Assembly (NCBI GenBank): GCA_030041375.1
Contig: JASHOA010000060.1
Coordinates: 1 to 64,000 of the forward strand
DNA: 64,000 nt
Direction: 5' to 3'
Source: Acetobacteraceae bacterium
GTDB lineage: Bacteria; Pseudomonadota; Alphaproteobacteria; Acetobacterales; Acetobacteraceae
Shown: one piece after another, positions 1,497 to 60,208 of the stretch
Position numbering within the stretch: the first letter of the stretch is position 1
Layout of the letters: every line of letters begins with the position of its first letter
Program-made: the position numbers and the translations under genes
Notes under the pieces: model-generated
What the model was told of the DNA's origin: nothing
What the model saw: the letters and a program-made list of their open reading frames with translations, nothing else
Databases searched by the model: none

Positions 1497-2363
1497 TTAC
1501 CCCGGCAGTTTCAGATCCACCATCACCGGGCAATGATCGGAGAGACGCTCGCGCCATACCGGCGCGGTTTCACGATAAACCAGCACCCGGAACGACGCCG
1601 GATCCAGCCACTGTTTGGCAGCACCCCCGGCCAGAATCTGGTCGATGAAGGTGCTGAAGCGGCCGCCCCAGCAAGGGTTGCGATATCCTGCCGTCGCCAC
1701 TGCGAGCGGCGTGATGTGTTCGAGCACGGCCAGGAACTGGCCGTGTGGATAAAGCACGCGATTGAAGTCTCCGAGCACCAGGAACGGCGTGCCATCGTGG
1801 ACGCGTGCGGCAATCCAGTTCTCGAGCACCGGAAGCTGTTCGCGCAGCACGGCACAAGCAAGCTTGCGTTCGCTCAGCGGAACTTCCCAGCAGCCGGTCT
1901 TGAGATGCACCGCGAGAATCCGAAGATTCGTCCCGCCGAGATGCAACGTGACGTCGGCGCCGCTCCGCAATTGCTCCGGTGCGTCCGCCGGATACGGGTC
2001 GAGGCCGCGAACGTCGGGATTGGCGGTGAAGGCAATGCCGCGACGGATGGCGATTCCGACCCGCTGCACCACGTGGTCTTGGGTGAAATGCAAAGCGTAC
2101 TGGCTCGGCGGGAAGACCTTGGCCGCCGCCGCCGGCCCGTCCACTTCCTCGATCGCCACTACGTCTGCATCGAGGGCCTCCGCATAGGCATGCAGGCGCG
2201 CGAAGTCCCCAGGCTCTCGTGGCTTGGCGTCCGGCGGCAGGGCCGGATCGCCAGCCGGGCGCAGCGTCAGCCATTCGAGATTCCAGGTCGCCACCTTGAG
2301 CACGGTTGCCGCCGCCGGCAGCGGGAGCAGGAGAACCAGCAGAACCAGGAAGCGGCGGATCAT
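1497..2363 (-). CDS. Secreted endonuclease/exonuclease/phosphatase family protein
   Basis: The 288-residue protein starts with a signal peptide (MIRRFLVLLVLLLPLPAAA) and then shows the EEP superfamily motifs in order: ATWNLEWL, IEEVDG, VHLKTG, GDFNR and a C-terminal SDHCPVMVDL containing the catalytic His. The fold covers DNases, sphingomyelinases and inositol phosphatases; export to the periplasm points to a nuclease or phosphoesterase acting on external substrate. Its ATG overlaps the stop of the upstream helicase gene (TGATG), so translation is probably coupled. Whether it works with that nuclease-helicase or merely sits after it is unknown. Confidence 0.88.
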   Translation of the reverse strand: MIRRFLVLLVLLLPLPAAATVLKVATWNLEWLTLRPAGDPALPPDAKPREPGDFARLHAYAEALDADVVAIEEVDGPAAAAKVFPPSQYALHFTQDHVVQRVGIAIRRGIAFTANPDVRGLDPYPADAPEQLRSGADVTLHLGGTNLRILAVHLKTGCWEVPLSERKLACAVLREQLPVLENWIAARVHDGTPFLVLGDFNRVLYPHGQFLAVLEHITPLAVATAGYRNPCWGGRFSTFIDQILAGGAAKQWLDPASFRVLVYRETAPVWRERLSDHCPVMVDLKLPG

Positions 2364-4378
2364 CAGGGCACCAGGGAGAATTGAGGTGAGGGGAGGGAAC
2401 CACAAAGTTGTAGATCATCCAACGGGTGCACGCCGCAGTCGAGAAGAAATTTCGCGATTTGGTCGTAGAGTTCAGGCGGTCGCGTTCGGTCGGCAGCTTC
2501 GCCCCGCGGCACCCAGACGATCGTATCGTAGCGTGCCCTGGTCAGCAGGACGCGGTAGGTGTTTCTGGTGTTTGCGATCTTCTCGGCTTCCCGCGCCAGA
2601 ATCCAGCCCGTGCCGCGAAATTCGCGCGCCTGCCAGCCATGACGTGCCCTGACGAGATCGCCGCCCCAGTAGACGCCCGCATAGTCGAGCTCGAGGCCTT
2701 GGCAGCAGAATTCGGTAGCCGGCACTTCGAGTGCATCCGACGCTCGTACGTCCGGCCAGCGGTCGAGGAACCAGCGGGTTACGGCGGCGACGTCCATGTG
2801 CGGCAGCTCCGCGCCGAGGCCTTCGGCCCGCAACCGCCGGGCGCCGGAACTGGCAAGCAACCCGGCGCGACATCCGCCACCCGAGCGTTCGCGCAATGCC
2901 CGGCGCATCGCTTCGCGATCGCGCGTCAACCGGAATGGCACGCCGCCTTCCTGGACAACGATATGCCGCGCCCGGTCGGCGGCGTCGGACAGCACGGCGT
3001 CCACCCATTCGGTGGCTGCAGAATTGCGGATCGCGCGCGCTGGCACGACAAGGCTGAGCCCCTCCTTCGCGGCGAGGCGTGGGCTCGGGGGCAAGCGCTG
3101 GAGCGAATCGCTTGCGGTGAGCGCGGCAATCGGCGCTTCGATCCGCCAGAGCGACCGGCACGACAAGGCAAGACCCCATTCGGCAAGTCCGCCTTCACCC
3201 GTGTGAATTTCCTGGCCGCCGCCCACGAGGCAGACGACGACGGCCCAATCATGGCGTCGTGCCATGATGTCGAGAATGTGCGCTGGTTCCGATTGGGTGA
3301 GTTTCGGGTTGCGATCGCGGGTTTTGCGGACCGCATACGCCTCCGACCAGCAGCGCTGCGCTTCATCAATGACGACCACATGCTCGGCTGGCATCTCATC
3401 GGCACGGGCCACGTAATGGTCTCGGAATGCCGGCAAGCGCTGGATCTGTCCCTCGACCTCGTGGCGCGCCTGGCGGAGTAGGCCCGATCGCCCGCTTGCC
3501 GCGTCGCGCGCGAGGGCCTCGCGGAGCACGTGCACAAGGGTGGGGTTGCCCGTCAGATACGCCGCTCCCAGGCGTCGTCCCACACCGAAGACGACATTGA
3601 GGCCGACCAAGGTCTTTCCAGCCCCGGGAACACCGGTCACGAACAGAGCGAGGTGCTGGGGGTTGGCCTCCGCGCTTTGCACGGCATCGAGGATTGCCGC
3701 GCTGGTTCGCTCGAGTTCTGCAGAGCCGGCGCGTGCCGAAGTGATCTCGGCTACGCCGTGCCCGCTGTAAAGGCGGCGTGCCGCTTCGACGATCCCGGGT
3801 ACCGGCCGATAGGGCGCATTCTCCCAGGCGATCGCATCGATCGGATCGGGGGGCGGCGGAAAATGGGCGGCGAGCCCTTCGATGAGTGGGCCGAGCGAAG
3901 TCCTCGAGGCACACATCGTTTGAACGACGCCGGCAATCGGCAGCGGCCAGTCCGGCTTCGGGGCGATTGCCTCGGTCGCAACGAGAACGGGTACGATCGG
4001 AACGGACCGACTTGCAGCGTGAAAATCGCGAAGATCGAGTGCGTAATCCTCCGTTTGCCTCAGGTCGGCGGCACCGAACACCCGCGCACCCACCTTGAAT
4101 TCAAGCACCAGCACCATCTGAGGTGCGATCAACACGGCATCGATGCGCCGGCCGAGCCGCAGCATCGGGTACTCCAGGAGAACCCGCCAACCAGCGGTCC
4201 CGGGCGTCGCCGCGAGGGTGCTCTGCAGGACAGCGATGGTTTCCTCCCACGCGCTGACTGCGGCAGCCTCCGTCTGGCGGAAATGCCGAACTTGCTCGGC
4301 GGCGAGGTGAGCCGTGATCGGAGCAGGCTCAGTGGCAACGAAGTCGGCCACCTGTGCCGAATAAAACGCCGCCGCCAT
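2363..4378 (-). CDS. Nuclease-helicase fusion, DUF2075/Schlafen-like AAA ATPase
   Basis: The 671-residue protein has two visible parts. Residues about 75-110 carry a PD-(D/E)xK-like core (RRIDAVLI ... VLVLEFKVG), the signature of NERD/restriction-type nucleases. From about residue 250 there is a superfamily 1 helicase-like ATPase of the DUF2075 type: Walker A GVPGAGKT, Walker B VVVIDEAQR, then VCLVGGGQEIHTGEGG and a C-terminal NTYRVLLTRAR motif with the helicase VI-like Arg. Such proteins occur in restriction or anti-phage islands and as lone genes. The start at 4378 (MAAAFYSAQ) gives the usual N-terminus. No methylase or defence partner lies next to it. Confidence 0.82.
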   Translation of the reverse strand: MAAAFYSAQVADFVATEPAPITAHLAAEQVRHFRQTEAAAVSAWEETIAVLQSTLAATPGTAGWRVLLEYPMLRLGRRIDAVLIAPQMVLVLEFKVGARVFGAADLRQTEDYALDLRDFHAASRSVPIVPVLVATEAIAPKPDWPLPIAGVVQTMCASRTSLGPLIEGLAAHFPPPPDPIDAIAWENAPYRPVPGIVEAARRLYSGHGVAEITSARAGSAELERTSAAILDAVQSAEANPQHLALFVTGVPGAGKTLVGLNVVFGVGRRLGAAYLTGNPTLVHVLREALARDAASGRSGLLRQARHEVEGQIQRLPAFRDHYVARADEMPAEHVVVIDEAQRCWSEAYAVRKTRDRNPKLTQSEPAHILDIMARRHDWAVVVCLVGGGQEIHTGEGGLAEWGLALSCRSLWRIEAPIAALTASDSLQRLPPSPRLAAKEGLSLVVPARAIRNSAATEWVDAVLSDAADRARHIVVQEGGVPFRLTRDREAMRRALRERSGGGCRAGLLASSGARRLRAEGLGAELPHMDVAAVTRWFLDRWPDVRASDALEVPATEFCCQGLELDYAGVYWGGDLVRARHGWQAREFRGTGWILAREAEKIANTRNTYRVLLTRARYDTIVWVPRGEAADRTRPPELYDQIAKFLLDCGVHPLDDLQLCGSLPSPQFSLVP

Positions 4379-4403: not shown

Positions 4404-4832
4404 TCAGGCCCTAGCGACAATCTCCTCCAGGGTGAGCGGACAGGCTGGTACTAGCGGCCGCGGCTTCTGTCCGTCGAGCGTATCCGGCAGCGCTTTGAGC
4501 GCATCGCCGTAGATCGCCGCGAGGTCGATTTTCTGTCGCATGGAAGGGCGATACTTGCGCCGTGCCCGGGCCCGGAAGCCACGCGCCTCGCCGCGCCATG
4601 CCGGAACATCCCGCGCCTCAGGCCACCCCTCGGCCTTCAGATCATGCACGAAGGCCTGGAACAGCCATGCCTCGACGGCGTCGATTTCGTTCCGGCCCAC
4701 GCTCTCGATTTCCTCGGTGACGTTTTCCCAGTCCACCTGGTCATTGACACGTTCGCCGGCGGCCAACCGGCGCAACAATGCCGCTTGCTGCTCCGACCAG
4801 GTTACGACGTCGCTGTCATAGAGGTCGCTCAT
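4404..4832 (-). CDS. DUF29 family protein
   Basis: The 142-residue protein shows the DUF29 hallmarks: opening LYDxDVVTWSEQQAALLRRL, the NVTEEIESVGRNE helix and a Leu/His-rich central helix. DUF29 proteins are common, often multicopy, in cyanobacteria and alphaproteobacteria, and their function is not established. The start at 4832 was preferred because an AGGAG lies 8 nt upstream; an in-frame ATG at 4853 has no such signal. It lies 25 nt upstream of the nuclease-helicase on the same strand and may be the first gene of that transcription unit. Confidence 0.85.
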   Translation of the reverse strand: MSDLYDSDVVTWSEQQAALLRRLAAGERVNDQVDWENVTEEIESVGRNEIDAVEAWLFQAFVHDLKAEGWPEARDVPAWRGEARGFRARARRKYRPSMRQKIDLAAIYGDALKALPDTLDGQKPRPLVPACPLTLEEIVARA

Positions 4833-7781: not shown

Positions 7782-7877
7782 TGGCGGAAGAGAGTGGGTG
7801 TCGAACCCACCGGAGGCCGGCTCACGGCCCCTCCCGGATTTGAAGTCCGGACACCCCACCGGGGGCGATTCCCTTCC
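7782..7877 (-). tRNA. selC: tRNA-Sec (UCA)
   Basis: The minus strand folds as a 96-nt selenocysteine tRNA: an 8-bp acceptor stem (GGAAGGGA with TCTCTTCC), discriminator G and encoded CCA, a long extra arm (GGGGCCGTGAGCCGGCCTC), a T-arm with GGTTCGA, and an anticodon loop CTTCAAA giving anticodon TCA (complement of 7841-7843). The 8-bp acceptor and large variable arm separate it from tRNA-Ser. It lies directly downstream of selB, which reads into its first 56 nt. Confidence 0.96.
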
Positions 7878-18465: not shown

Positions 18466-18640
18466 TAAGGTCGGGACAGATTCCGGTGGCCCGCAAGGGC
18501 TGAAACGGGAACGCGTGAACCGCGGCTGCCCCCGCAACTGTACGGTGGCGAGCCTGGCCTGACGACGCCATTGCCCGCAACGGGCGAGAAGGCAGCACCA
18601 GGTAACGACCCCCAAGCCAGGAGACCGGCCGGAATCGAGA
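18466..18640 (+). promoter_or_regulatory. Cobalamin (B12) riboswitch
   Basis: This leader contains the conserved adenosylcobalamin aptamer elements in order: an opening GGTGGCCCGCAAGGGCTGAAACGGGAA-like block (18485-18512), the core CTGCCCCCGCAACTGTACGG (18527-18545) and the B12 box AGCCAGGAGACC (18615-18626). It lies upstream of btuB, which encodes the B12 outer-membrane receptor, so it should shut off btuB when cobalamin is plentiful. Confidence 0.96.
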
Positions 18641-18650
18641 CTGTTCGCAC

Positions 18651-21315: not shown

Positions 21316-21983
21316 TGGCTGCCTTCCGGGTTGGTCAGCACAAAGCGTATCTTGAGGAGCATGGTGGAGGAAACGGGCCGTCCTGCCGCGTGCGCGGGAA
21401 CGAAGTGCCAGCCCTCGACTGCCCTCCGCGCCGCCGCATCCAAGAGCCCGTAGCTCGAAGTGCGGAAGATATCGACCCCCGTCACGCTGCCGTCCGTTGC
21501 GATGTGAACTTTCAGGATCACCGAGCCCTGTTCACCCTCCTCGACCGCCTGCCGCGGGTAGGCGGGGGGAAGGTTCCGCACTGCCTGGTCGAGCGCTGCC
21601 GAGATCACCTGGCTTCCGGAAACAAGCCCGGTGCCGGTCGAGCCCGGTTCGCCGATGCGAACGAAGGTCGCTGCCGGCTCGGCTGGCTGCATCGCTTCGG
21701 CATCCGCGGCGGGTGCCGGCTGTGCGGTCAGCATGGCAGGTGGCGGCGCCGCCGAAGGCTGGCCTGGGTACGCTGGCGCCGCCACCGGTTTGGCAGCAGA
21801 CTCACTAGCCGCCGCCGGCGCGGCCTGGCTTCCCACGGCGGGGGTGTCCTGCTCCACCAGTTCAACCTCGGCGAGCACCGACGGCGACTTCAGACTTCGC
21901 CCCGGCAAGAGCCGGGTGCCCGCCACCAGGAGAAGTGCTAGGGCGGCGTGCAGCGCGACCGAGCAAAGAAGCCACCGGTGCAT
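21312..21983 (-). CDS. tonB: TonB-like energy transducer
   Basis: The 223-residue protein has an N-terminal membrane anchor (WLLCSVALHAALALLLV), a long Pro/Ala-rich periplasmic spacer and a C-terminal TonB domain with PPAYPRQAVEEGEQGSVILK, GVDIFRTSSYGLLDAAARRAV and WHFVPA. It is probably the dedicated partner that energises BtuB. It overlaps the btuD stop (TAATG) and the next gene by 4 nt. ExbB and ExbD are not in the window. Confidence 0.92.
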   Translation of the reverse strand: MHRWLLCSVALHAALALLLVAGTRLLPGRSLKSPSVLAEVELVEQDTPAVGSQAAPAAASESAAKPVAAPAYPGQPSAAPPPAMLTAQPAPAADAEAMQPAEPAATFVRIGEPGSTGTGLVSGSQVISAALDQAVRNLPPAYPRQAVEEGEQGSVILKVHIATDGSVTGVDIFRTSSYGLLDAAARRAVEGWHFVPAHAAGRPVSSTMLLKIRFVLTNPEGSQ

Positions 21984-28603: not shown

Positions 28604-29614
28604 ATGGCCATATCAACGACCCGCGAGTCACGGGCCGCGGGCTTGCGCCGCCTGCTGGAGGAGGCCGTGCTGGTGCCCTGGGCCGGCGTGCTCCTCGGCC
28701 TGATCGGCGTCTGCATCGTCGTCGCGGCGATATCACGCTACTTCCTGACAGTCGACAACATCCTCGGCAACGTCGCGTTGTATTTTTCCTGGTTCGCCAT
28801 CGCCGGCTTCGGCGAGGCACTGGTGATGATCGGCGGCGGCCTCGATCTTTCGGTTGGCTCCATCATGGGGCTCTCCGGCATGGTGAGCGCATTGGTGCTG
28901 GCGAACGGAATGCCGCTTTGGCTCGCGCTCATCGCCGGCCTGGCAGTCGGCGCCTTTGCCGGTGCCGTCAACGGGTTCGCCGTCACGCGCATCGGTCTCA
29001 ATCCGTTCATCGCCACCCTCGCCACCCTCGGTGTGTTCCGCGGCATGGCTTACGGGATCGTACTCGGCGAGGCGGTCACGCCGCCAAACAACGCGGCCGG
29101 CAAAGCGTTCACGGCGCTCGGCGGCGCCCTCGGCGTGGTTCCTGTGCCGGTCATCGTCATGGTCGTGCTGGCGGTGGGGATGTACGTCGCCCTTGCGCAT
29201 ACACCGTTCGGGCGTCATGTCTACGCGCTCGGCGGCAACGAGGCGGCGACCCGGCTGCTCGGCCTCAACATCAATCGGCTGAAAATGATCCTCTACGTGC
29301 TGTCGGGCCTGACCGCAGCCGTGGGTGGTATCCTGCTCACCGCCCGCGCCGGGACGGCGCTTCCGGATGCCGCCGAGGGCTATGAACTCGGAGTGATTGC
29401 CGGAGTGATCATCGGGGGCGTCAGCCTGACCGGCGGGCAGGGCACCATTCCCGGCGTATTGATCGGGGCTGCGCTGCTCGGTGTCATCAACAACGGCATC
29501 GTGCTGGCCGGCTTGGCCGGATACTGGCAGCAGCTCATCATCGGCCTCGTCATCGCCGCCGCCGCCGGCCTTGACGTGCTTCGCCAGAGGCTCGCATACC
29601 TGCGCTCGGCCTGA
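28604..29614 (+). CDS. Sugar ABC transporter permease, RbsC family
   Basis: The 336-residue permease has about eight to ten membrane helices and the RbsC-type pattern: FGEALVMIGGGLDLSVGSIMGL, NGFAVTRIGLNPFIATLATLG, FGRHVYALGGNEAATRLLGLN and GVSLTGGQGTIPGVLIGAALLGVINNGI. It is the only intact permease of this importer. A remnant of a second permease lies at 30960-31068, after the first binding protein. Confidence 0.93.
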   Translation: MAISTTRESRAAGLRRLLEEAVLVPWAGVLLGLIGVCIVVAAISRYFLTVDNILGNVALYFSWFAIAGFGEALVMIGGGLDLSVGSIMGLSGMVSALVLANGMPLWLALIAGLAVGAFAGAVNGFAVTRIGLNPFIATLATLGVFRGMAYGIVLGEAVTPPNNAAGKAFTALGGALGVVPVPVIVMVVLAVGMYVALAHTPFGRHVYALGGNEAATRLLGLNINRLKMILYVLSGLTAAVGGILLTARAGTALPDAAEGYELGVIAGVIIGGVSLTGGQGTIPGVLIGAALLGVINNGIVLAGLAGYWQQLIIGLVIAAAAGLDVLRQRLAYLRSA

Positions 29615-29662
29615 GCCGGAAAGAGCGTCGGCATCGGGCAAGACCAAACAGGAGGAAACGCC

Positions 29663-30706
29663 ATGCCGAAGACACGGCCCGTCTCGGCTTCGCTCCGCCG
29701 TCGCACCCTCATCCGCGCCTCGGCACTTGTCGCCGGCGCCGGATTGCTCGCCCGGCCCTACGTGGCGCGCGCCGCCAAACGCTACACGATCGCCGTGATC
29801 CCCAAATCACTCTCCAATCCGGCCTTCGATTATGCCCGTTGGTCCGCCGAGACGCGGGCCCAGGAACTCGGCGACGTCGACCTGATCTGGACCGGCTCCA
29901 GCACGGCGGATGCCAATATCGAGGCGCAGACGATTTCCGGCCTGATCAATCGCCACGTGGATGCCATGGCAATCGACGCCGCCAACACGGAGCCACTGGT
30001 CGCGCCGATCAACGAAGCAGTTGCCAAAGGGATCATTGTCATCACCTGGGATTCGGATGTCCCCCAATCGAAACGCAAGCTGTTCTACGGCGTCGACAGC
30101 TTCAAGATGGGCCAGTTGCTCGGCGAGAACGCGATCAAGTTCATGGGCGACACAGGCACCGTGATCCTGGTCAGCGGCCCGCCCGGAGCCAGCAATCTCG
30201 CCCAACGGCTCGCCGGGGTGAAGGCCGTGCTTGCGAAATATCCGGGCGTCAAGACCCTCGGCCCCTACTTCGACTATGACGACATGCTCAAGGGGCAGAA
30301 CCTGACCGACAATCTGCTGGTGTCGCACCCTGACGCCGGCGCCATTGTGAACGTCGCAGCGGTGGCGTTCTTCGGCAAAGTGAGCGCGATGCCGCAGGTG
30401 ATCAAAAACAAGGGCAAGGTGAAGCTGATCTGCAGCGATACCCTGGCGGCCGAGCTTCCGTTCGTCGCGGACGGTTATGTCCAGGCCCTGGTCGGGCAGG
30501 ACTATTGGGGCTGGGGCTATCAGACGGTGAGCATCATTCACAATCTCCTCACCAATCCGAACTGCCACTATCCGGAGCTGGTGCCTCAGGGGTTGCCTGT
30601 GGTGACCGCCGCCAACGTCCAGGAGTGGATGGGGAAGTGGAAGGGGGCAACGACGCGGGAGGGAGCTGCGAAGGCGTTCCAGGAGGCGCCGATCGGCTGC
30701 ATGTAA
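29663..30706 (+). CDS. Sugar ABC transporter substrate-binding protein, copy 1
   Basis: The 347-residue protein has a Tat-type signal (RRRTLIRASALVAGAGLLA) and a type I periplasmic binding fold (RbsB/LsrB-like) with YTIAVIPKSLSNPAF, ISGLINRHVDAMAIDAANTE, VITWDSDVPQSKRKLFYGVD and DYWGWGYQTVSIIHNLLTNP. A strong AGGAGGAAACGCC precedes the ATG. It is closely related to the second binding protein at 31115-32158 along its whole length, the product of a tandem duplication. Confidence 0.93.
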   Translation: MPKTRPVSASLRRRTLIRASALVAGAGLLARPYVARAAKRYTIAVIPKSLSNPAFDYARWSAETRAQELGDVDLIWTGSSTADANIEAQTISGLINRHVDAMAIDAANTEPLVAPINEAVAKGIIVITWDSDVPQSKRKLFYGVDSFKMGQLLGENAIKFMGDTGTVILVSGPPGASNLAQRLAGVKAVLAKYPGVKTLGPYFDYDDMLKGQNLTDNLLVSHPDAGAIVNVAAVAFFGKVSAMPQVIKNKGKVKLICSDTLAAELPFVADGYVQALVGQDYWGWGYQTVSIIHNLLTNPNCHYPELVPQGLPVVTAANVQEWMGKWKGATTREGAAKAFQEAPIGCM

Positions 30707-30716
30707 CGATGCGGAA

Positions 30717-30955
30717 ATGACCGCGCCGCTGCTTTCGCTCCGCGGCATCTTCGCGCATTACGGCCCCGTCCATCCGCTCGACGGGCGGATTTCGACCTTT
30801 TCCCCGGTAGCGGGCCTAGACTCGTGTCGGGCTGACCGTGCAGCCCGACACCGGTCTCGCGGTTTATTCGAGCCCGCGATTCACGCCCTCCGACGTTTCC
30901 GCCTCGGGCGAGGCGCGGGCTAGTCGGCGACAACGGCGCGGCGAAGGGAACGGCG
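30717..30955 (+). pseudogene. Remnant of sugar ABC ATPase, split by a repeat
   Basis: The first 33 nt are identical to the start of the intact ATPase at 32169 (MTAPLLSLRGI), and the sequence stays closely similar to 30815, with a 1-nt deletion near 30785 that shifts the frame. A 108-bp CTAG-delimited repeat then interrupts it at 30816-30923. Homology resumes after the repeat (TCGGCGACAACGGCG against TCGGCGACAATGGCG of the Walker A region) and stops near 30950. The gene is dead three ways: frameshift, insertion and 3' loss. Confidence 0.9.
30816..30923 (-). repeat. CTAG-bounded repeat, module 1, copy A
   Basis: This 108-bp copy, in reverse orientation, is bounded by CTAG at 30816-30819 and 30920-30923. 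It carries the two palindromes of the family (a GTGTCGGGCTG ... CAGCCCGACAC hairpin and an AGCCCGCGAT ... ATCGCGGGCT hairpin, here slightly changed). Comparison with the intact ATPase shows that it sits inside formerly coding DNA, with CTAG on both sides where the intact gene reads CTCG, as expected for a 4-bp target duplication. Confidence 0.92.
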
Positions 30956-30959
30956 GCGC

Positions 30960-31068
30960 ATGACCGAGTTGGCCGGCTATTGGCAGCAACTCATCAGGGG
31001 CCTTGTCATCGCCGCTGCCGGCCTTGACTTGCTTCGCCAGAGGCTTGCATACCGGCGCTCGGCTGAGC
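30960..31068 (+). pseudogene. Remnant of sugar ABC permease C-terminus
   Basis: The sequence matches the last 33 codons or so of the intact permease (LAGYWQQLIxGLVIAAA, then DxLRQRLAYxRSA). A GCC codon is missing from the Ala run, and a single-base deletion near the end destroys the stop codon. It lies directly after the ATPase remnant. It shows that a second permease gene once preceded the second binding protein and that a deletion fused the two remnants. Confidence 0.88.
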
Positions 31069-31114
31069 CGGGAACAGGCCCGGCAGCGGGGAAAACCAAA
31101 CGGGAGGCATGCCC

Positions 31115-32158
31115 ATGACCAAGACACCCCTTACCTCTGTTCCGATCCGCCGCCGCACGCTGGTTGGCGCCGCCGCCGCCGGGGCCGGCGCCTCTTTGCT
31201 CGCCCGGCCCTATGTGGCGCGCGCCGCCAAACGCTACTCGATCGCCGTGATCCCCAAGGCACTCGACAATCCGGTCTTCTATTATGCTCATTACGGTGCC
31301 CAAACTCGCGCCAAGGAACTCGGCGACGTGGACCTGATCTGGACCGCGTCCACCACCTCGGATGCCAGCGTCGAGGCGCAGGTACTGTCCGGCCTGATCA
31401 ATCGCCATGTCGATGCCATGGCAGTGGACGCCAACGCGGCGGAGCCGCTGGTCGCGCCGATCAACGAAGCGGTCGCCAAGGGAATCACGGTCATCACCTG
31501 GGACTCGGATGTGCCGGGCTCGAAGCGCAAGCTGTTCTACGGCGTCGACAGCTATAAAATGGGTCAGTTGCTCGGCGAGAACGCAATCAAGTTCATGGGC
31601 GACAAGGGCACGGTTATTCTGGTCAGCGGCGGGCCGGGGGCGCCCAACCTGAACGCCCGGCTCAAAGGCGCCACCGACACGCTCGCTAAATACCCCGGCG
31701 TCAAGACGCTCGGCCCCTTCTTCGACAACGACGATCTCATCAAGGCGCAGAACCTGATGAACAATCTCCTGATTTCGCACCCGGACGCCGGCGCCATTCT
31801 GAATGTTGCCGCGGTGGCGTTCTTCGGCAAGCTGAGTGCGCTACCGGAGGTCATCAAGAACAAGGGCAAAGTGAAGATCGTCGGCAGCGATACGCTGGCT
31901 CCCGAGCTCCCTCTGGTCGCGGACGGCTATGTGCAGGCGCTGGTCGGCCAGGACTATTGGGGCTGGGGCTATCAGACGGTGAGCATCATCCACAATCTCC
32001 TCACCAACCCGAACTGCCATTATCCGGAGCTGGTGCCGCAGGCGATGCCGGTAGTGACCGACGCCAACGTGAAAGACTGGATGGCCAAATGGGAGGAAGC
32101 AAAAACCGCGGAAGGAGCCGCGAAGGCGTTCCAGGAGGCGCCGATCGGCTGCATGTAA
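31115..32158 (+). CDS. Sugar ABC transporter substrate-binding protein, copy 2
   Basis: The 347-residue protein is a paralogue of copy 1, with a Tat-type signal (RRRTLVGAAAAGAGASLLA), GLINRHVDAMAVDANAAEPL, VITWDSDVPGSKRKLFYGVD and an identical C-terminal AAKAFQEAPIGCM. The start at 31115 was chosen because GGGAGG lies 7 nt upstream; the ATG at 31109 is too close to it. It is followed after 10 nt by the intact ATPase. Differences are concentrated in the middle, so the ligand may differ from copy 1. Confidence 0.93.
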   Translation: MTKTPLTSVPIRRRTLVGAAAAGAGASLLARPYVARAAKRYSIAVIPKALDNPVFYYAHYGAQTRAKELGDVDLIWTASTTSDASVEAQVLSGLINRHVDAMAVDANAAEPLVAPINEAVAKGITVITWDSDVPGSKRKLFYGVDSYKMGQLLGENAIKFMGDKGTVILVSGGPGAPNLNARLKGATDTLAKYPGVKTLGPFFDNDDLIKAQNLMNNLLISHPDAGAILNVAAVAFFGKLSALPEVIKNKGKVKIVGSDTLAPELPLVADGYVQALVGQDYWGWGYQTVSIIHNLLTNPNCHYPELVPQAMPVVTDANVKDWMAKWEEAKTAEGAAKAFQEAPIGCM

Positions 32159-32168
32159 CGATGCGGAA

Positions 32169-32930
32169 ATGACCGCGCCGCTGCTTTCGCTCCGCGGCAT
32201 CTTCAAGCATTACGGTCCCGTACACGCCCTCGATGGGGTGGATTTCGATCTCTTCCCCGGCGAGATCGTCGGCCTCGTCGGCGACAATGGCGCCGGGAAG
32301 TCGACCCTGATCAAGGTGATGTCGGGCGCGGTCGTGCCCGATGGTGGTGCCATCCTGTTCGAGGGCAAGCCGGTCGTGTTGCGTTCGCCGCAGGATGCGC
32401 GTGCGATCGGCATCGAGACCGTCTATCAGGATTTGGCGGTCGTGCCGTGGCTGGACGTCGAGGCGAATCTTTTCCTCGGCCGCGAGATGACCGGCAATCG
32501 CTGGTGGAATCGCTGGTTCCTCGATAAGCGGGCGATGCGGCGCGAGGCGGCGCACCACATCGCCTCGCTGCAAGTAGGACTGAAATCGGTGCGCCAGCCG
32601 GTCGGACTGCTATCCGGCGGGCAGCGGCAAAGTGTTGCGGTGGCGCGGGCGATTTCCTGGGGGCGCAAGGTCGTGATCATGGACGAACCGACCGCCGCAC
32701 TTGGCGTGCGCGAGTCCCGGGGCGTGCTCGATCTCATCAAACGGGTGAAGGAACGCGGCCTGGCGGTGGTCCTGATCAGCCACAACTTGCCCCACGTGTT
32801 CGAAGTCACGGACCGCATCTTCGTGCTCCGCCAGGGCACCGAGGCCGGCACTCTGGTCACGGGCGAGACGCACGTGACCGACGTCGTCAGCCTGATCACC
32901 GGCGTCAAGGTTTCCGCCGCCGTCGCGTAA
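32169..32930 (+). CDS. Sugar ABC transporter ATPase, single-domain
   Basis: The 253-residue ATPase has Walker A GDNGAGKST, Q-loop ETVYQDLAVVP, signature LLSGGQRQSVAVARA, Walker B VVIMDEPTAALGVRES and switch His VVLISHNLPH. It is a single nucleotide-binding domain of the kind in FrcA-type systems, unlike the double-domain RbsA, so it should work as a homodimer. It presumably serves the one intact permease and both binding proteins. Confidence 0.94.
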   Translation: MTAPLLSLRGIFKHYGPVHALDGVDFDLFPGEIVGLVGDNGAGKSTLIKVMSGAVVPDGGAILFEGKPVVLRSPQDARAIGIETVYQDLAVVPWLDVEANLFLGREMTGNRWWNRWFLDKRAMRREAAHHIASLQVGLKSVRQPVGLLSGGQRQSVAVARAISWGRKVVIMDEPTAALGVRESRGVLDLIKRVKERGLAVVLISHNLPHVFEVTDRIFVLRQGTEAGTLVTGETHVTDVVSLITGVKVSAAVA

Positions 32931-32971: not shown

Positions 32972-33078
32972 CTAGCCCGCAATCGCCCGAGGCGGGAACG
33001 TCGGAGGGCGTGAATCGCGGGCTCGAATAAAGCGCGAGACCGGTGTCGGGCTGCACAATCAGCCCGACACCGCTCTAG
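32972..33078 (+). repeat. CTAG-bounded repeat, module 1, copy B
   Basis: A full 107-bp copy in forward orientation begins CTAGCCCGCAATCGCCCGAG and ends ACACCGCTCTAG. It has hairpin 1 (AGCCCGCAAT ... ATCGCGGGCT), the spacer CTCGAATAAAGCGCGAGACC and hairpin 2 (GTGTCGGGCTG ... CAGCCCGACAC). Its right-hand CTAG (33075-33078) is shared with the next element. Confidence 0.93.
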
Positions 33079-33351
33079 CCCAACTTGCGCAGTTGGCGGC
33101 CCATTTCCGACATTTGCGGCCATTCGCGCTTAGCGAAATCAAGGGCCTGAGCGGCGAAAAATACTCTTTCGGTCGTGTAGTGCCGACCTTGGCTATTGAC
33201 AAGCCGCTGCGAACGTGAGTCTGCTTCAATGGTTCGCCAATCGATGGAAAATTGGTGGTCCGGACAGCAAGTTTACCAAAAATGTAGTGCCGACTTTTGC
33301 GCTAACGCATTGTTTTCATTGGGACGGGCACCCGATTCTGCGCAAGTTGGG
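33079..33351. mobile_element. MITE-like element with perfect inverted repeats
   Basis: The 273-bp element starts CCCAACTTGCGCA and ends TGCGCAAGTTGGG, a perfect 13-bp terminal inverted repeat, and is flanked on both sides by CTAG (33075-33078 and 33352-33355). With the flanking CTCTAG included, the mirror extends to 19 bp. It has no open frame of note and is visibly more AT-rich than the surroundings. A short direct repeat (TGTAGTGCCGACTT-like) occurs inside at 33176 and 33283. The layout is that of a non-autonomous transposable element inserted at CTAG. Confidence 0.8.
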
Positions 33352-33459
33352 CTAGAGCAGATCGCGATCAGACGGAATCGGCTGATCGCGTGAAGATGCT
33401 CGCCAAAACAAAGAGCTAGAGCAGTTGCCGTGAGCCATGGCGAACGGAAATTGCTCTAG
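33352..33459 (-). repeat. CTAG-bounded repeat, module 2 (2a and 2b), copy at 33.4 kb
   Basis: Two CTAG-delimited palindromic units share a CTAG at 33416-33419. Unit 2a (33352-33419) holds the hairpin CGCGATCAG ... CTGATCGCG; unit 2b (33416-33459) is a 44-bp near-palindrome whose arms are AGAGCAGTTGCCGT and AACGGAAATTGCTCT. The pair recurs in reverse complement at 59998-60105. The last CTAG contains the stop codon of the EamA gene. Confidence 0.92.
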
Positions 33460-34373
33460 CCTCTGACAGCCGGGGCTCTCACTCCGAGTGCCAGGGCCGC
33501 GCCGGTCAGCATCAGCATCATGCCCGCCGCTTCCGCTCGCGAAACGGTCTCTCCGAAGCTGAGCATGCCGCTGATCACGGCGATGATCGGCACCACAAAG
33601 GCATAGGTTGCCGAGCGGCTCGGTCCCCAGTCGCGCAGCAGCACGAAATAGAACGTGTAGCCGATCAGCGTTCCGAAGACGACGATATAGAACCAGCCGA
33701 GCCAGGCGAGGAGGCCCCACTCGCCGCCTGCAGCAGCGCGCGCACCCGGCTCGAAACCGAGCGAGAGCAACAGCAACGCTGCACCGCCGGCAAGATAGGT
33801 AAGCCCCGAAAGCAGCACGGCCGGATGACGCGCGAGCAGGGGGCGCGCCAGCACAGAGCCCGCGCAGGAGGCCAAGGTTGCCGCGACGATCGCAAGCATG
33901 CCGAGCGTCTGCCATTTGTCGGCGCTGCCGATTGCTTCCGCCGCCGGCCAGAACAGCAGGGCCAGCCCGAGAATTCCGATTCCGATGGCAATCCCCTGGC
34001 GAACCAGGAATCGTTCCTCCCCGAGTGCAACGCCGAGCAGCAGCATGACGAGCGGCGTCAAAGCCGAGTTCAGCACCGCTGCGAGCCCGGACGGGATGAC
34101 CCGCAGCCCCCAGTAGAGCGGCGCGTAGGTCAGTGGAATGAGCAGGGCCGCGGAAATCAGAAGCCGCGGCAGATCCTCAGCCGGCACCATCCGGCCGCGG
34201 CGACGCCGCGGCGCCCAGTGATAGCCAAGCACCACCAAGCCGGCCACGGCGAAGCGCGTACCTGCGAACAGCATCGGCGGCACGGCATCCACGCCGAGTT
34301 TCGTTGCCACCCAGGTCGTGCCCCAGATCAGGCAGATCGTTGCAAACAGGAGATGGCGGTACGTGAACGGCAT
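33456..34373 (-). CDS. EamA/DMT family transporter
   Basis: The 305-residue protein has ten hydrophobic helices in two EamA repeats. Signatures are CLIWGTTWVATKLGV and PPMLFAGTRFAVAG in the first half, and VIPSGLAAVLNSALTPLVML and GPSRSATYAFVVPIIAVISG in the second. Members export amino acids, nucleosides or other metabolites; the substrate is unknown. The start at 34373 (MPFTYRHLLFA) follows GGAAGAG; a GTG at 34409 is possible. Its TAG stop lies inside the CTAG boundary of module 2. Confidence 0.9.
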   Translation of the reverse strand: MPFTYRHLLFATICLIWGTTWVATKLGVDAVPPMLFAGTRFAVAGLVVLGYHWAPRRRRGRMVPAEDLPRLLISAALLIPLTYAPLYWGLRVIPSGLAAVLNSALTPLVMLLLGVALGEERFLVRQGIAIGIGILGLALLFWPAAEAIGSADKWQTLGMLAIVAATLASCAGSVLARPLLARHPAVLLSGLTYLAGGAALLLLSLGFEPGARAAAGGEWGLLAWLGWFYIVVFGTLIGYTFYFVLLRDWGPSRSATYAFVVPIIAVISGMLSFGETVSRAEAAGMMLMLTGAALALGVRAPAVRG

Positions 34374-34430
34374 CGGCCACACATACTCTTCCGCCAGTTG
34401 AGCAGGCACCCACCCGGGCGCTTCCCCGCC

Positions 34431-35563: not shown

Positions 35564-35670
35564 CTAGACCGGGGTCGGGCTGACTGTGCAGCCCGACCCC
35601 GGTCTCGCGCTTTATTCGAGCCCGCGATTCACGCCCTCCGACGTTTCCGCCTCGGGCGATCGCGGGCTAG
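35564..35670 (-). repeat. CTAG-bounded repeat, module 1, copy C
   Basis: A complete 107-bp copy in reverse orientation, bounded by CTAG at 35564-35567 and 35667-35670. Both hairpins are perfect here (GGGTCGGGCTG ... CAGCCCGACCC; AGCCCGCGAT ... ATCGCGGGCT). It lies between the aldo/keto reductase start and the 3' end of the PQQ dehydrogenase. Confidence 0.94.
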
Positions 35671-39614: not shown

Positions 39615-39666
39615 CTGAGCCCGCGATCGCCCGCGGCGGAATCGTCGGAGGGCGTGAATCGCGGGG
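39615..39666 (+). repeat. Partial module 1 repeat, copy D
   Basis: Only the first half of the module 1 repeat is present: the AGCCCGCGAT ... ATCGCGGGGT hairpin, with CTGAG where other copies have CTAG. The second hairpin is lost; unrelated sequence follows. It sits in the convergent gap between the phosphodiesterase gene and glnA. Confidence 0.85.
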
Positions 39667-39689
39667 TTAAACAATGTCCTCGTGTCCTG

Positions 39690-39728
39690 CCCCTTTCGTT
39701 TGCTGCCGCCGGCAGCAAACGAAAGGGG
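39690..39728. terminator. 39-bp perfect palindrome in the convergent gap before glnA
   Basis: Arms CCCCTTTCGTTTGCTGCCG and its exact complement flank a single C, making a 19-bp perfect stem. It lies between the 3' ends of the phosphodiesterase gene and glnA, the right place for a bidirectional terminator, though it lacks a U-tract. A protein-binding or mobile-repeat origin is also possible. Confidence 0.55.
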
Positions 39729-39879
39729 ATGAGAGGCCACTCCAGGCAGGCTGAACACGCTCACATCGTCGCCCAGCCTTGCAAGGGTAGCAGCCTCGCA
39801 AGGCACTCTTCTCTGCGATCGGGCGCCGGACCAGGCCCGGCGCCCGCCCTGGCCTCCGATGCGGAGGGGCGTTTGCGGA

Positions 39880-56620: not shown

Positions 56621-57018
56621 GCACCAACGGCTTCCGCTATCTGCACACGATGATCCGGGTCAGGAATCTCGACCGGAGTGTGCATTTCTACACCAGGCTC
56701 CTCGGCATGAAGGAGTTGCGCCGGCGCGAGGTTCCGGATGGCAAGTACACGCTCGCATTTGTCGGATACGGTGAGGAATCGGGCAACACCGTGCTCGAAC
56801 TCACCTACAACTGGGGCCAGGACGATGGCTACGATCTCGGGACCGGCTTCGGTCATCTGGCCCTTGGCGTCCCCAACGTCGCTGCGACCTGTACAGAGCT
56901 GCGGAAAGAGGGAGTAAAGATCACGCGTGAGCCAGGCCCGGTAAAATTCGGTACCACGGTGATCGCTTTCATCGAGGATCCGGACGGCTACAAGATCGAA
57001 CTCGTGGAACGTCCCTAG
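56617..57018 (+). CDS. gloA: Lactoylglutathione lyase (glyoxalase I)
   Basis: GloA isomerises the methylglyoxal-glutathione adduct. The 133-residue protein has metal-site residues in [14 protein letters not shown] (His), VLELTYNWG (Glu), GFGHLALGV (His) and [10 protein letters not shown] (Glu), the standard four-ligand set. The ATG overlaps the lpxI stop. The TAG stop is part of the CTAG that begins repeat copy E. Confidence 0.95.
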
Positions 57019-57116
57019 CCCGCGATCGCCCGAGGCGGAATCGTCGGAGGGCGTGAATCGCGGGCTCGAATAAAGCGCGAGACCCGTGTCGGGCTGCACA
57101 TTCAGCCCGACACAGT
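57015..57116 (+). repeat. CTAG-bounded repeat, module 1, copy E
   Basis: A near-complete forward copy starts CTAGCCCGCGATCGCCCGAG and runs to CAGCCCGACACAG. It has both hairpins and the spacer CTCGAATAAAGCGCGAGACC but has lost the right-hand CTAG. Its left CTAG contains the gloA stop codon. Confidence 0.92.
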
Positions 57117-57401
57117 CCTTCCGGTTCCGCACTTCATTGCCTCGCGCTTGCAAATTGCCGCGCTCCCGATTCAAACGCGCGACGCAGCGCCACGCTTCAT
57201 AGCCCCGAAAATGCCCCGGTCGGCTTGACATCGCGGGGTTTTCTTGCACCGTTGTGGCGACCAACCGGCGTTCGGGAGGGCGATGTGCTCGCTCCTGCGC
57301 AAGCGTTGCCGCGTCGTCCGCATCAACGGAAGCTGTCCGCCGGTGAGCGTGACATTCGCGTGGCCGGCAAAGCGCGCTGCCACCTCCAGTGAGCCGCTGA
57401 T
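57117..57401. other. Intergenic region upstream of pcaB
   Basis: No gene is seen in this 285-nt stretch after repeat E. Short open frames such as that from 57244 lack support. A promoter for pcaB is expected, but no clear -35/-10 pair or regulator site was identified. Confidence 0.45.
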
Positions 57402-58828: not shown

Positions 58829-60001
58829 ATGCGCACCCAGGTTGGAATTGTCGGAGCGGGTCCCGCGGGCCTGATGCTCTCCCACCTCCTGCACCTGAGC
58901 GGCATCGAATCCGTTGTCATCGAAAGCCGCACTCGCGAATCGATCGAGGCGACGATCCGGGCCGGTGTTCTGGAGCAGAGCACGGTCGATTTGATGACCG
59001 AAACGGGTGTGGGAGATCGGCTCAGGCGCGAAGGATTCGTGCACCATGGCATCGCAATACGCTTCTCTGGTCGCAGCCATCGGATCGATTTCCAGGCGCT
59101 GACCGGTGGCCGTGCGATTACGGTCTATGCCCAGCATGAAGTGATCAAGGACCTGATCAGGGCGCGGCTTGGCGCTGGAGCAACGATCCTGTTTGGTGCC
59201 AGGGCGACCGGCGTGGATGACGTTCAATCCGCACGGCCAAAGGTGCATTTCATCCGGAACGGCAGGGACGAGGATCTATCCTGCGACTTCGTGGTCGGAG
59301 CCGACGGCTCTTACGGGGTGTGCCGCGCCGGCATTCCGGAGAGTGCACATCAGGATTATGCGCGGATTTATCCTCTGGGCTGGTTCGGAATCCTGGCGAA
59401 AGCGCCGCCCTCATCGAACGAACTGATCTACAACAGTCACGAGCGCGGGTTCGTGCTGGTGAGCACGCGCTCTCCCCAGGTGCAGCGCATGTATTTCCAG
59501 TGCGATCCGTCCGAATCAGTGGAAAGCTGGTCTCAGGATCGAATCTGGGCGGAGTTGCAGACACGCATCGCCGGCGGCGGATTCCGACTGAAAGAGGGGG
59601 AGATATTCCAAAAGGATATCATCCCGATGCGCAGTTTCGTCTGCGAGCCGATGCAGTATGGCCGCTTGTTCCTTGCCGGGGACGCCGCGCACATCGTGCC
59701 GCCGACCGGGGCGAAGGGGCTCAATCTCTCGATCGCCGATATCCATGTCCTCGCCCGGGCGATCAGTGCTTATTATGCGTCGAAGGCCACCGACCTGCTT
59801 GACGCCTATTCCACGACAGCCTTGAGGCGCGTATGGCGCGCGCAGCACTTTTCCTATTGGATGACGAGTATGCTGCATCGCTTCCCGGACGCGAACGCGT
59901 TCGACCGCAAGCGACAGTTGGCCGAACTTGAATTGCTGATCAGCTCGCGTTCGGCACAGACCCTGCTCGCACAGAACTACGTGGGCCTGCCACTCGGCTA
60001 G
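58829..60001 (+). CDS. pobA: 4-hydroxybenzoate 3-monooxygenase
   Basis: PobA hydroxylates 4-hydroxybenzoate to protocatechuate with FAD and NADPH. The 390-residue protein, close to the family length, has TQVGIVGAGPAGLMLSHLL, ESRTRESIEATIRAGVLEQ, the SCDFVVGADGSYGVCR motif and RLFLAGDAAHIVPPTGAKG. The start at 58829 matches the family. Its stop TAG lies in the CTAG that begins repeat module 2. Confidence 0.93.
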   Translation: MRTQVGIVGAGPAGLMLSHLLHLSGIESVVIESRTRESIEATIRAGVLEQSTVDLMTETGVGDRLRREGFVHHGIAIRFSGRSHRIDFQALTGGRAITVYAQHEVIKDLIRARLGAGATILFGARATGVDDVQSARPKVHFIRNGRDEDLSCDFVVGADGSYGVCRAGIPESAHQDYARIYPLGWFGILAKAPPSSNELIYNSHERGFVLVSTRSPQVQRMYFQCDPSESVESWSQDRIWAELQTRIAGGGFRLKEGEIFQKDIIPMRSFVCEPMQYGRLFLAGDAAHIVPPTGAKGLNLSIADIHVLARAISAYYASKATDLLDAYSTTALRRVWRAQHFSYWMTSMLHRFPDANAFDRKRQLAELELLISSRSAQTLLAQNYVGLPLG

Positions 60002-60105
60002 AGCAATTTCCGTTCGCCATGGCTCACGGTAACTGCTCTAGCTCTTTGTTTTGGCGAGCATCTTCACGCGATCAGCCGATTCCGTCTGATCGCGATCTGC
60101 TCTAG
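59998..60105 (+). repeat. CTAG-bounded repeat, module 2 (2b and 2a), copy at 60 kb
   Basis: Reverse complement of the module 2 pair at 33352-33459. Unit 2b is 59998-60041 and unit 2a 60038-60105, sharing CTAG at 60038-60041. The first CTAG contains the pobA stop; the last (60102-60105) is shared with module 1 copy F. Confidence 0.92.
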
Positions 60106-60208
60106 CCCGCGATTGCCCGAGGCGGAATCGTCGGAGGGCGTGAATCGGGGGCTCGAATAAAGCGCGAGACCTGTGCCGGGCTGCACAGCCAGCCCGACAC
60201 GGGTTTAG
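60102..60208 (+). repeat. CTAG-bounded repeat, module 1, copy F
   Basis: A complete 107-bp forward copy, with CTAG on the left (60102-60105) and TTAG on the right (60205-60208). Hairpins and spacer are conserved with small changes. The right end contains the hemJ stop codon read from the opposite strand (TAA). Confidence 0.92.

Follow-up and report, generated by a model that had tools for sequence, protein, structure and literature searches.

Short repeats with two arms are abundant in alphaproteobacteria. The CIR elements of Caulobacter were reportedly described by Chen and Shapiro in 2003. RIME1 of Rhizobium is a 108-bp element with two palindromes; it resembles one of the repeats analyzed here (M2) in length and architecture. 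The CcrM-associated intergenic repeats (CIR) of Caulobacter are like the three repeats that we call M1, M2 and M3 in having two hairpin arms with a linker and in being present in many copies (PMC2229807). In the passages of this 2007 source that deal with CIR, the elements are about 110 bp long, carry GANTC, have TA termini and occur in alphaproteobacteria; M1 and M2 agree with them in length and number, while M3 is about 130 bp long. The target duplication of CIR is given there as '?', and more information on mobility is asked for. In contrast, the boundaries seen here fit a duplication of TA, and the chaining at CTAG is not described for CIR in those passages; the likeness noted is one of architecture. 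The likeness to Bru-RS1 and Bru-RS2 of Brucella is that of hot spots for a YTAR-specific IS. These two appear in the relevant parts of two reports as palindromic repeats (Bru-RS1, 103 bp) and IS hot spots; IS711, which uses them as hot spots, duplicates TA at YTAR (PMC2266754, PMC3163539). Like Bru-RS1, M1 measures about 103 bp, and 34 of 42 IS ends lie at module CTAGs. The differences are that an IS1182-like IS and an IS1634-derived MITE are involved here and that the repeats also chain mutually.

Other described elements have single features in common with the present ones. MITEPsy1 of Pseudomonas syringae is a 100-nt MITE that inserts at CTAG or YTAA, but an ISPsy2 origin is suggested and a 4-nt duplication reported for it, and chaining is unmentioned in the sections on this element (PMC3189936). 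RUP of Streptococcus pneumoniae, a non-autonomous 107-bp repeat, has a TA-containing target, occurs inside other mobile elements and, according to the same source as for CIR, is proposed to be moved in trans by IS630-Spn1 (PMC2229807); its host and IS family are different, and so, judged by architecture, is its structure. IS1272 / TnSha1 belongs to the IS1182 family and targets hairpins, but the parts of the reports that describe the insertion state that IS1272 takes out all or part of the stem-loop without duplicating its target (PMC5678879, PMC4923244), whereas the IS resident in the present genome abuts CTAG beside intact modules. A term search of the open-licence literature listed no paper on IS1182 insertion at CTAG or on CTAG-chained repeats, although two papers contain both IS1182 and CTAG. 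By analogy, M1, M2 and M3 resemble the hairpin repeats of the CIR and Bru-RS type.

The window analyzed here is a stretch of 64,000 nucleotides from an Acetobacteraceae bacterium (GCA_030041375.1, contig JASHOA010000060.1). An initial annotation of this window had described four CTAG-delimited blocks that lie end to end at 33 kb. Its CTAG positions were all confirmed: 32972, 33075, 33352, 33416 and 33456, which is five sites within 488 bp, with distances of 103, 277, 64 and 40 bp from one CTAG start to the next. The four blocks are indeed contiguous, but they correspond to three separate elements, M1, a MITE and M2, with the third and fourth block recurring jointly as M2. CTAG is scarce overall and clustered at the array; the window contains 21 sites compared with a mean of 65 in 100 dinucleotide shuffles, and a sample of 839 kb from the same genome contains 256 compared with 614 by a Markov estimate. 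The features of the locus are as follows.

32169..32930, + strand: ABC transporter ATPase ORF, upstream of the array
32972..33078, + strand: M1, CIR-like two-hairpin repeat of about 103 bp (copy search; fold z -4.7)
33075..33355, + strand: MITE, 273 bp between the CTAGs (33079-33351), single copy, apparently IS1634-family derived (ends match an IS1634-family IS)
33352..33459, + strand: M2, two-hairpin repeat of 108 bp with an internal CTAG at 33416 (own-genome copies; relative in Rhodovastum atsumiense)
33352..33419, + strand: hairpin A of M2, 64 bp plus CTAG (fold z -4.75)
33416..33459, + strand: hairpin B of M2, 40 bp plus CTAG (fold z -5.4)
33456..34409, - strand: EamA-family transporter ORF, its TAG stop inside the terminal CTAG of the array

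The best relatives of the ABC ATPase in a scan of named genomes are 58-59% identical. Near this gene two 300-bp stretches (29611-29910 and 31063-31362), 1.45 kb apart, are 77% identical and look like a duplicated gene pair. The window also contains a selenocysteine tRNA (7786-7877, - strand) and a cobalamin riboswitch (18467-18647, + strand), both well over the Rfam gathering score. Two further CTAG pairs of the window, 21805-21941 and 4411-4454, each matched themselves alone in 454 kb searched.

We searched the complete assembly (4.54 Mb, 95 contigs) for copies of the three elements. For M1, 76 places passed E <= 0.001, and at 49 of these the copy is full or nearly full length; in this count 40 of 321 first-look candidates were scored, and many of the weaker places are a hairpin matching its own reverse. 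M2 was found at 40 places (38 near-full), and eight of these near-full copies, including the one in the array, are 100% identical. The MITE gave one match. An unselected sample of 454,331 bases (contig C52 from 1 to 264000, window included, and all of contig C10) holds 33 M1, 4 M2 and 11 M3 matches, of which 16, 4 and 8 are full; this extrapolates to roughly 330 M1, 40 M2 and 110 M3 per genome, partial copies included. The 839-kb sample, in which 20 stretches were picked for holding M1 or M2, has 85, 17 and 22 matches (full: 63, 16 and 14). M1, M2 and M3 showed no mutual similarity at E <= 0.001. Nevertheless, M1, both parts of M2 and M3 have predicted folds with two stem-loop arms and a linker (z -4.7 to -6.0), and in the predicted fold of M2 hairpin B the foot of the stem is formed by pairing of the two CTAGs. 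At least one GANTC is present in 63 of 63 full M1 copies (mean 1.62, expected 0.25). The motif also occurs in 12 of 14 copies of M3 (mean 0.93, expected 0.31) and, more weakly, in 10 of 16 copies of M2 (mean 0.63, expected 0.25). A relative of M2 in Rhodovastum atsumiense matches at 80% over the full length; on a plasmid of this species (L150, 2001-2107) the start CTAG of the M2 relative overlaps the end of a D-aminoacylase gene. M1 had zero matches to plasmids.

Further copies in the window are listed here together with the state of the site in a sister species, G001.

30816..30923, - strand: M1; G001 keeps hairpin A only
35564..35670, - strand: solitary M1; G001 has no element (CAAG)
39618..39742, no strand assigned: mosaic of M1 hairpin A and a reversed M3 hairpin B
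57015..57117, + strand: M1, beginning at a CTAG that provides the stop of a glyoxalase-family ORF; G001 has a partly different module
59998..60105, - strand: M2, which shares CTAG 60102 with M1; not present in G001
60102..60208, + strand: M1 joined to M2

The pair at 60 kb is as the initial annotation had reported it: M2 (minus strand, 99% identical) and M1 (plus strand, 89%) share the CTAG at 60102 without a MITE. The same annotation had suggested a search for unjoined copies of the 273-bp element and of M2, and had reasoned that an array which always occurs as one unit is a single composite element. The parts of the array occur apart; this holds for M1 and M2, whereas the MITE is a single copy with relatives in other genomes only. 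It is therefore extremely improbable that M1, MITE and M2 form a single composite element and move together. The contiguous blocks with their common boundaries and the joint recurrence of the M2 hairpins as a 108-bp unit would suit such an element, but M1 and M2 have many copies, often apart, against a single match for the MITE, the order and orientation of M1 and M2 vary, and in the sister species the array site is occupied by M3.

The sister genome is 95.5% identical over 62,525 aligned bases. At the site of the 33-kb array it has a single M3 between CGCT-TTAG and CTAG-CCTCTG and none of M1, MITE and M2; copies of M3 are present elsewhere in the genome under study. This counterpart was read separately from a comparison of 16 clusters (six in the window, four in contig C73 and six in contig C63), for five of which the flanks do not lie together on a single G001 contig (the array of the window, C73:28034, C63:96927, C63:97646 and C63:104206). 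Among the 11 clusters with both flanks, eight correspond to G001 sites without the element. At 60 kb M2 is absent and G001 reads CTCGG-CTAG-CCGCGG, beside an apparent decayed M1; at 35.5 kb M1 is absent and the sequence is CTTG-CAAG-GCAG. Sites without M1 read CTGG at C73:29045 and at C63:90574 and TTAG at C63:108185, the site without M2 at C73:13234 reads GTAG, and the site without M3 plus M1 at C73:24134 reads CTTG. At C63:90907 G001 has M3 alone, followed by CTAT, and the genome under study has M3 plus M1. The remaining sites are occupied in part: hairpin A of M1 is alone at 30.8 kb, the module at 57 kb is partly different and at 39.6 kb there is the start of the M1 part only. In a more distant relative, G002, the array is absent; the two genes on either side of it enclose about 1.7 kb of other DNA. 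There is also no element at 57 kb.

The boundaries of the elements give information on the target. The 62 boundary pairs of M1 are CTAG/CTAG (22), CTAG/CTAA (11), TTAG/CTAG (5) and CTAG/TTAG (1), and in 23 no YTAR was found at one or both ends. For M2 (n=16) 13 pairs are CTAG/CTAG and one end is lacking in three; for M3 (n=13) four are CTAG/CTAG and one is TTAG/CTAG, with one or both ends lacking in eight. At C63:108185, where the sister reads TTAG, the element is flanked by TTAG and CTAG. The asymmetric pairs together with this site fit an element of the form G...C with TA duplicated in YTAR, and the duplicated bases are best read as the TA within YTAR. At CTAG targets a 4-bp duplication of CTAG is indistinguishable from a duplication of TA. 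The eight readable G001 sites without an element (CTAG, TTAG, GTAG, CTAT, CTGG, CTGG, CAAG and CTTG) keep YTAR in two and TA in four cases, which is below the prediction from 5% divergence and speaks against a simple account. Non-module CTAGs were kept between the two genomes in 2/5 and 2/4 cases, and all five changes were to CTGG or CCAG, the pattern expected of very-short-patch repair. This lability of CTAG outside modules directly accounts for the two CTGG sites only.

These boundaries also bear on the idea that M1, M2 and M3 are repeats of the REP/REPIN type which are moved by a RAYT, a Y1 tyrosine transposase. A duplication of TA is not expected of Y1 transposition, while the boundaries fit one; in addition, Y1_Tnp (PF01797) was found in 0/5 genomes of the genus (two of the five less than 90% complete) compared with 5/14 controls. 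In spite of the short palindromes, the terminal tetranucleotide and the doublets and clusters, all of which are reminiscent of REPs, we consider this origin very improbable. The REPs covered in the relevant part of PMC3733652 have GTAG or CGTC at one end.

Instead of insertion, the main source of array growth could be tandem duplication of modules or unequal recombination among them, and the junctions allow a comparison of the two. We examined 31 junctions among M1, M2 and M3, leaving out the MITE junctions of the window; both ends are intact in 21, and 10 include a partial copy. CTAG is present at 22 and absent from nine. The 16 junctions between different families are in opposite (11) or the same (5) orientation. 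The 15 junctions within a family are all head-to-tail (Fisher p 6.8e-5 for orientation versus different-family junctions), and six of them read CTCG/CGAG in place of CTAG. Eight adjacent pairs of full M1 copies have a mean identity of 0.953 versus 0.905 for all pairs, a value that 39 of 10000 resamples reach. The head-to-tail order, the CTCG/CGAG junctions and the similarity of adjacent M1 copies favour duplication, but it gives no account of the different-family junctions in both orientations, of the element-free sites or of a nested copy: at C73:28034-28430 the order is M2, M1 and then an M3 whose internal CTAG is the point at which another M2 interrupts it. As the main route of array growth duplication is unlikely, and for different-family arrays it is refuted. 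Different families appear to accumulate by insertion, in either orientation. Local duplication probably accounts for some of the head-to-tail tandems within a family, and inverted same-family pairs may be unstable as long palindromes. The initial annotation had proposed that different elements inserted repeatedly into one and the same tetranucleotide. The M3 at the array site in G001, the element-free sites, the step from M3 to M3 plus M1 and the nested M2 bear out this proposal for different families; for the same-family tandems (15/15 head-to-tail) local duplication is in part the better explanation.

The middle block of the array had been characterized as a MITE-like element of low GC with a perfect terminal inverted repeat. 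The low GC was reproduced (53.0% versus 66.3% for the window). The inverted repeat is perfect but longer than the 13 bp, or 19 bp with flanks, originally given: it comprises 15 bp, or 21 bp including the flanks (GCTCTAGCCCAACTTGCGCAG).

33078..33092, + strand: left terminal inverted repeat of the MITE, GCCCAACTTGCGCAG, 15 bp
33168..33197, + strand: subterminal stretch of the MITE with GTGTAGTGCCGACCTTGG, common to IS1634-type left ends (93% over 29-30 bp in the genomes G094 and G174)
33338..33352, + strand: right terminal inverted repeat of the MITE (reverse complement of GCCCAACTTGCGCAG)

A 2-kb IS with the same termini is present on a plasmid of Bradyrhizobium sp. Ash2021 (L149, about 2051-4076), and its transposase scores 310 bits with NCBIfam transpos_IS1634 (cut-off 100). 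The MITE aligns to the two ends of this IS over roughly its first 125-138 and last 80 bp, and the aligned IS regions lie outside the gene or at its edge; an ORF of at least 100 aa, and with it a transposase gene of its own, is absent from 33075-33355. As far as its sequence tells, the middle block is an IS1634-family element minus the transposase gene, and it would be moved by an IS1634-type transposase. The relative of the MITE in G094 (L144, 973-1430) is 458 bp long and retains C-terminal remnants of the transposase; it adjoins another hairpin with TAGAGC ends, and the outer flanks fit CTAG. Any match to the MITE was found in 4 of 195 genomes searched, and among 385 genomes of the class three have the 16-base pattern of its end; both counts include the genome under study. 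Its own assembly has no close IS1634-type transposase; what it contains is one distant fragment, 28% identical over part of the protein. Where contig C28 ends, an M1 is followed by CTAG-CCCAACTTTCGCAG, an end similar to that of the MITE. Exact matches of the end pattern in 22 viral contigs, each with a single end, looked fortuitous by eye.

A second kind of IS is found at the CTAGs of the modules. The genome has 42 places that match CGTGTCGGATTGGSG, compared with 0 for the reversed-pattern control; the ends read GCAGCGTGTCGG in 40 and GCCCCGTGTCGG in two. CTAG precedes all 42 ends, and 34 of them abut modules (M1 15, M2 19). In general a module lies beside 64 of 226 CTAG sides (C52 and C10) or 186 of 512 (839 kb). 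The resulting binomial p values of 2e-12 or 4e-9 are both too small because IS ends are paired within copies, of which there are at most about 21. An earlier count that merged identical flanks gave 32 IS ends, 32/32 at CTAG. All 42 ends lie within 85-219 bases of a contig end; hence the IS accounts for many assembly breaks, and the two flanks of single copies are unpaired in this genome.

One IS end encodes a 56-aa N-terminal fragment that resembles IS1182-family transposases. This fragment has zero Pfam matches, and the assembly contains no full copy of the IS. The best 14 plasmid matches, all from Acetobacteraceae and several annotated as IS1182 family, cover the full length of the fragment at 64-70%, and one of these relatives passes NCBIfam transpos_IS1182 (360 bits, cut-off 270). 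Together with the full-length M2 relative in Rhodovastum, these matches suggest that the host probably belongs to Acetobacteraceae. Four of six Acetobacteraceae plasmid relatives inspected end in GCAGCCTGTCGGGTTGG. Their flanks are CTAG/CTAG (L315, L318), CTAG/CTAA (L316) and TTAG/CTAA (L317); for L319 and L320 the second end was not found. These four copies from Komagataeibacter/Acetobacter fit a duplication of TA. In K. europaeus (L318) the IS lies at the foot of an intact hairpin that resembles hairpin B of M2. With this hairpin intact and flanks that fit TA duplication, a stem-loop replacement like that of IS1272 is not needed.

It is quite possible, though rather less than an even bet, that M1, M2 and M3 are all moved by such an IS1182-like transposase which targets their CTAG ends; this would extend the insertion reading and does not exclude it. 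The right end of M1, GACCCGTGTCGGGCTG, matches the IS end at 11 or 13 of 16 positions in a fixed register (background fraction 0.0015 or 0.0002, with 24 comparisons made), which makes trans-mobilisation of M1 plausible. The IS and the modules have the target in common, and a stand-alone hairpin B of M1 has CTAG at its bounds. On the other hand, no resemblance to the IS ends at the 0.02 level was seen for the left M1 end or for either end of M2 or M3, and IS1272, of the same family, is without target duplication in the part of PMC5678879 that describes it. We infer that M1 at least is plausibly moved by the resident CTAG-specific IS1182-like transposase.

Together, the separate copies, the element-free sister sites, the different occupant at the array site, the addition of M1 to M3, the nesting and the TA-fitting boundaries, all of them read from DNA sequence, make it highly likely that short non-autonomous transposable elements have piled up one after another in the array and that they duplicate TA inside YTAR, preferably CTAG. 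An element that starts with G and ends with C and inserts into such a site would convert one C-TA-G into C-TA-G...C-TA-G; because of the G...C ends and the duplicated TA, CTAG would be regenerated at both ends. With the target regenerated, later elements of any family with the same target could land beside the first or inside it at internal CTAGs. A DDE transposase would act on the elements in trans, and the feet of the hairpins may attract insertions through recognition of their structure.

The comparison of filled sites with sister sites points to TA duplication at YTAR for these abundant two-armed repeats. Under the simple rule of G...C ends plus TA duplication in CTAG, a scarce target increases its own number, and unrelated elements could stack without spoiling each other's landing site. 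We tentatively suggest, as a view somewhat less probable than even the movement of the three repeats by the IS1182-like enzyme, that CIR-type repeats are TA-duplicating transposons which are moved in trans by IS1182-family transposases that recognise CTAG at hairpin feet, and that repeats and IS together form a self-enlarging landing pad for unrelated IS families in CTAG-depleted genomes. With the resident IS seen at CTAG only, the identity of the transposase that moves such repeats becomes directly testable.

Stop codons were considered as targets. This candidate was rejected, since the share of stops is no higher than CTAG itself offers: the TAG is the stop of a long ORF for 15 of 86 outer module CTAGs and for 25 of 240 readings of non-module CTAGs (p 0.12), with 0/86 for module CTAGs read outward and 69/2000 for random TAGs as controls. 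With a stricter score cut-off the values were 2/86 (module), 0/86 (outward), 12/240 (non-module) and 8/1000 (random).

Stand-alone short hairpins bounded by CTAG (C52:146132-146175; L292) are possible minimal mobile units. At C35:18390-18620 (L260) one M1 precedes a tandem of two half-M1 units, each about 63 bp long, with shared CTAGs.
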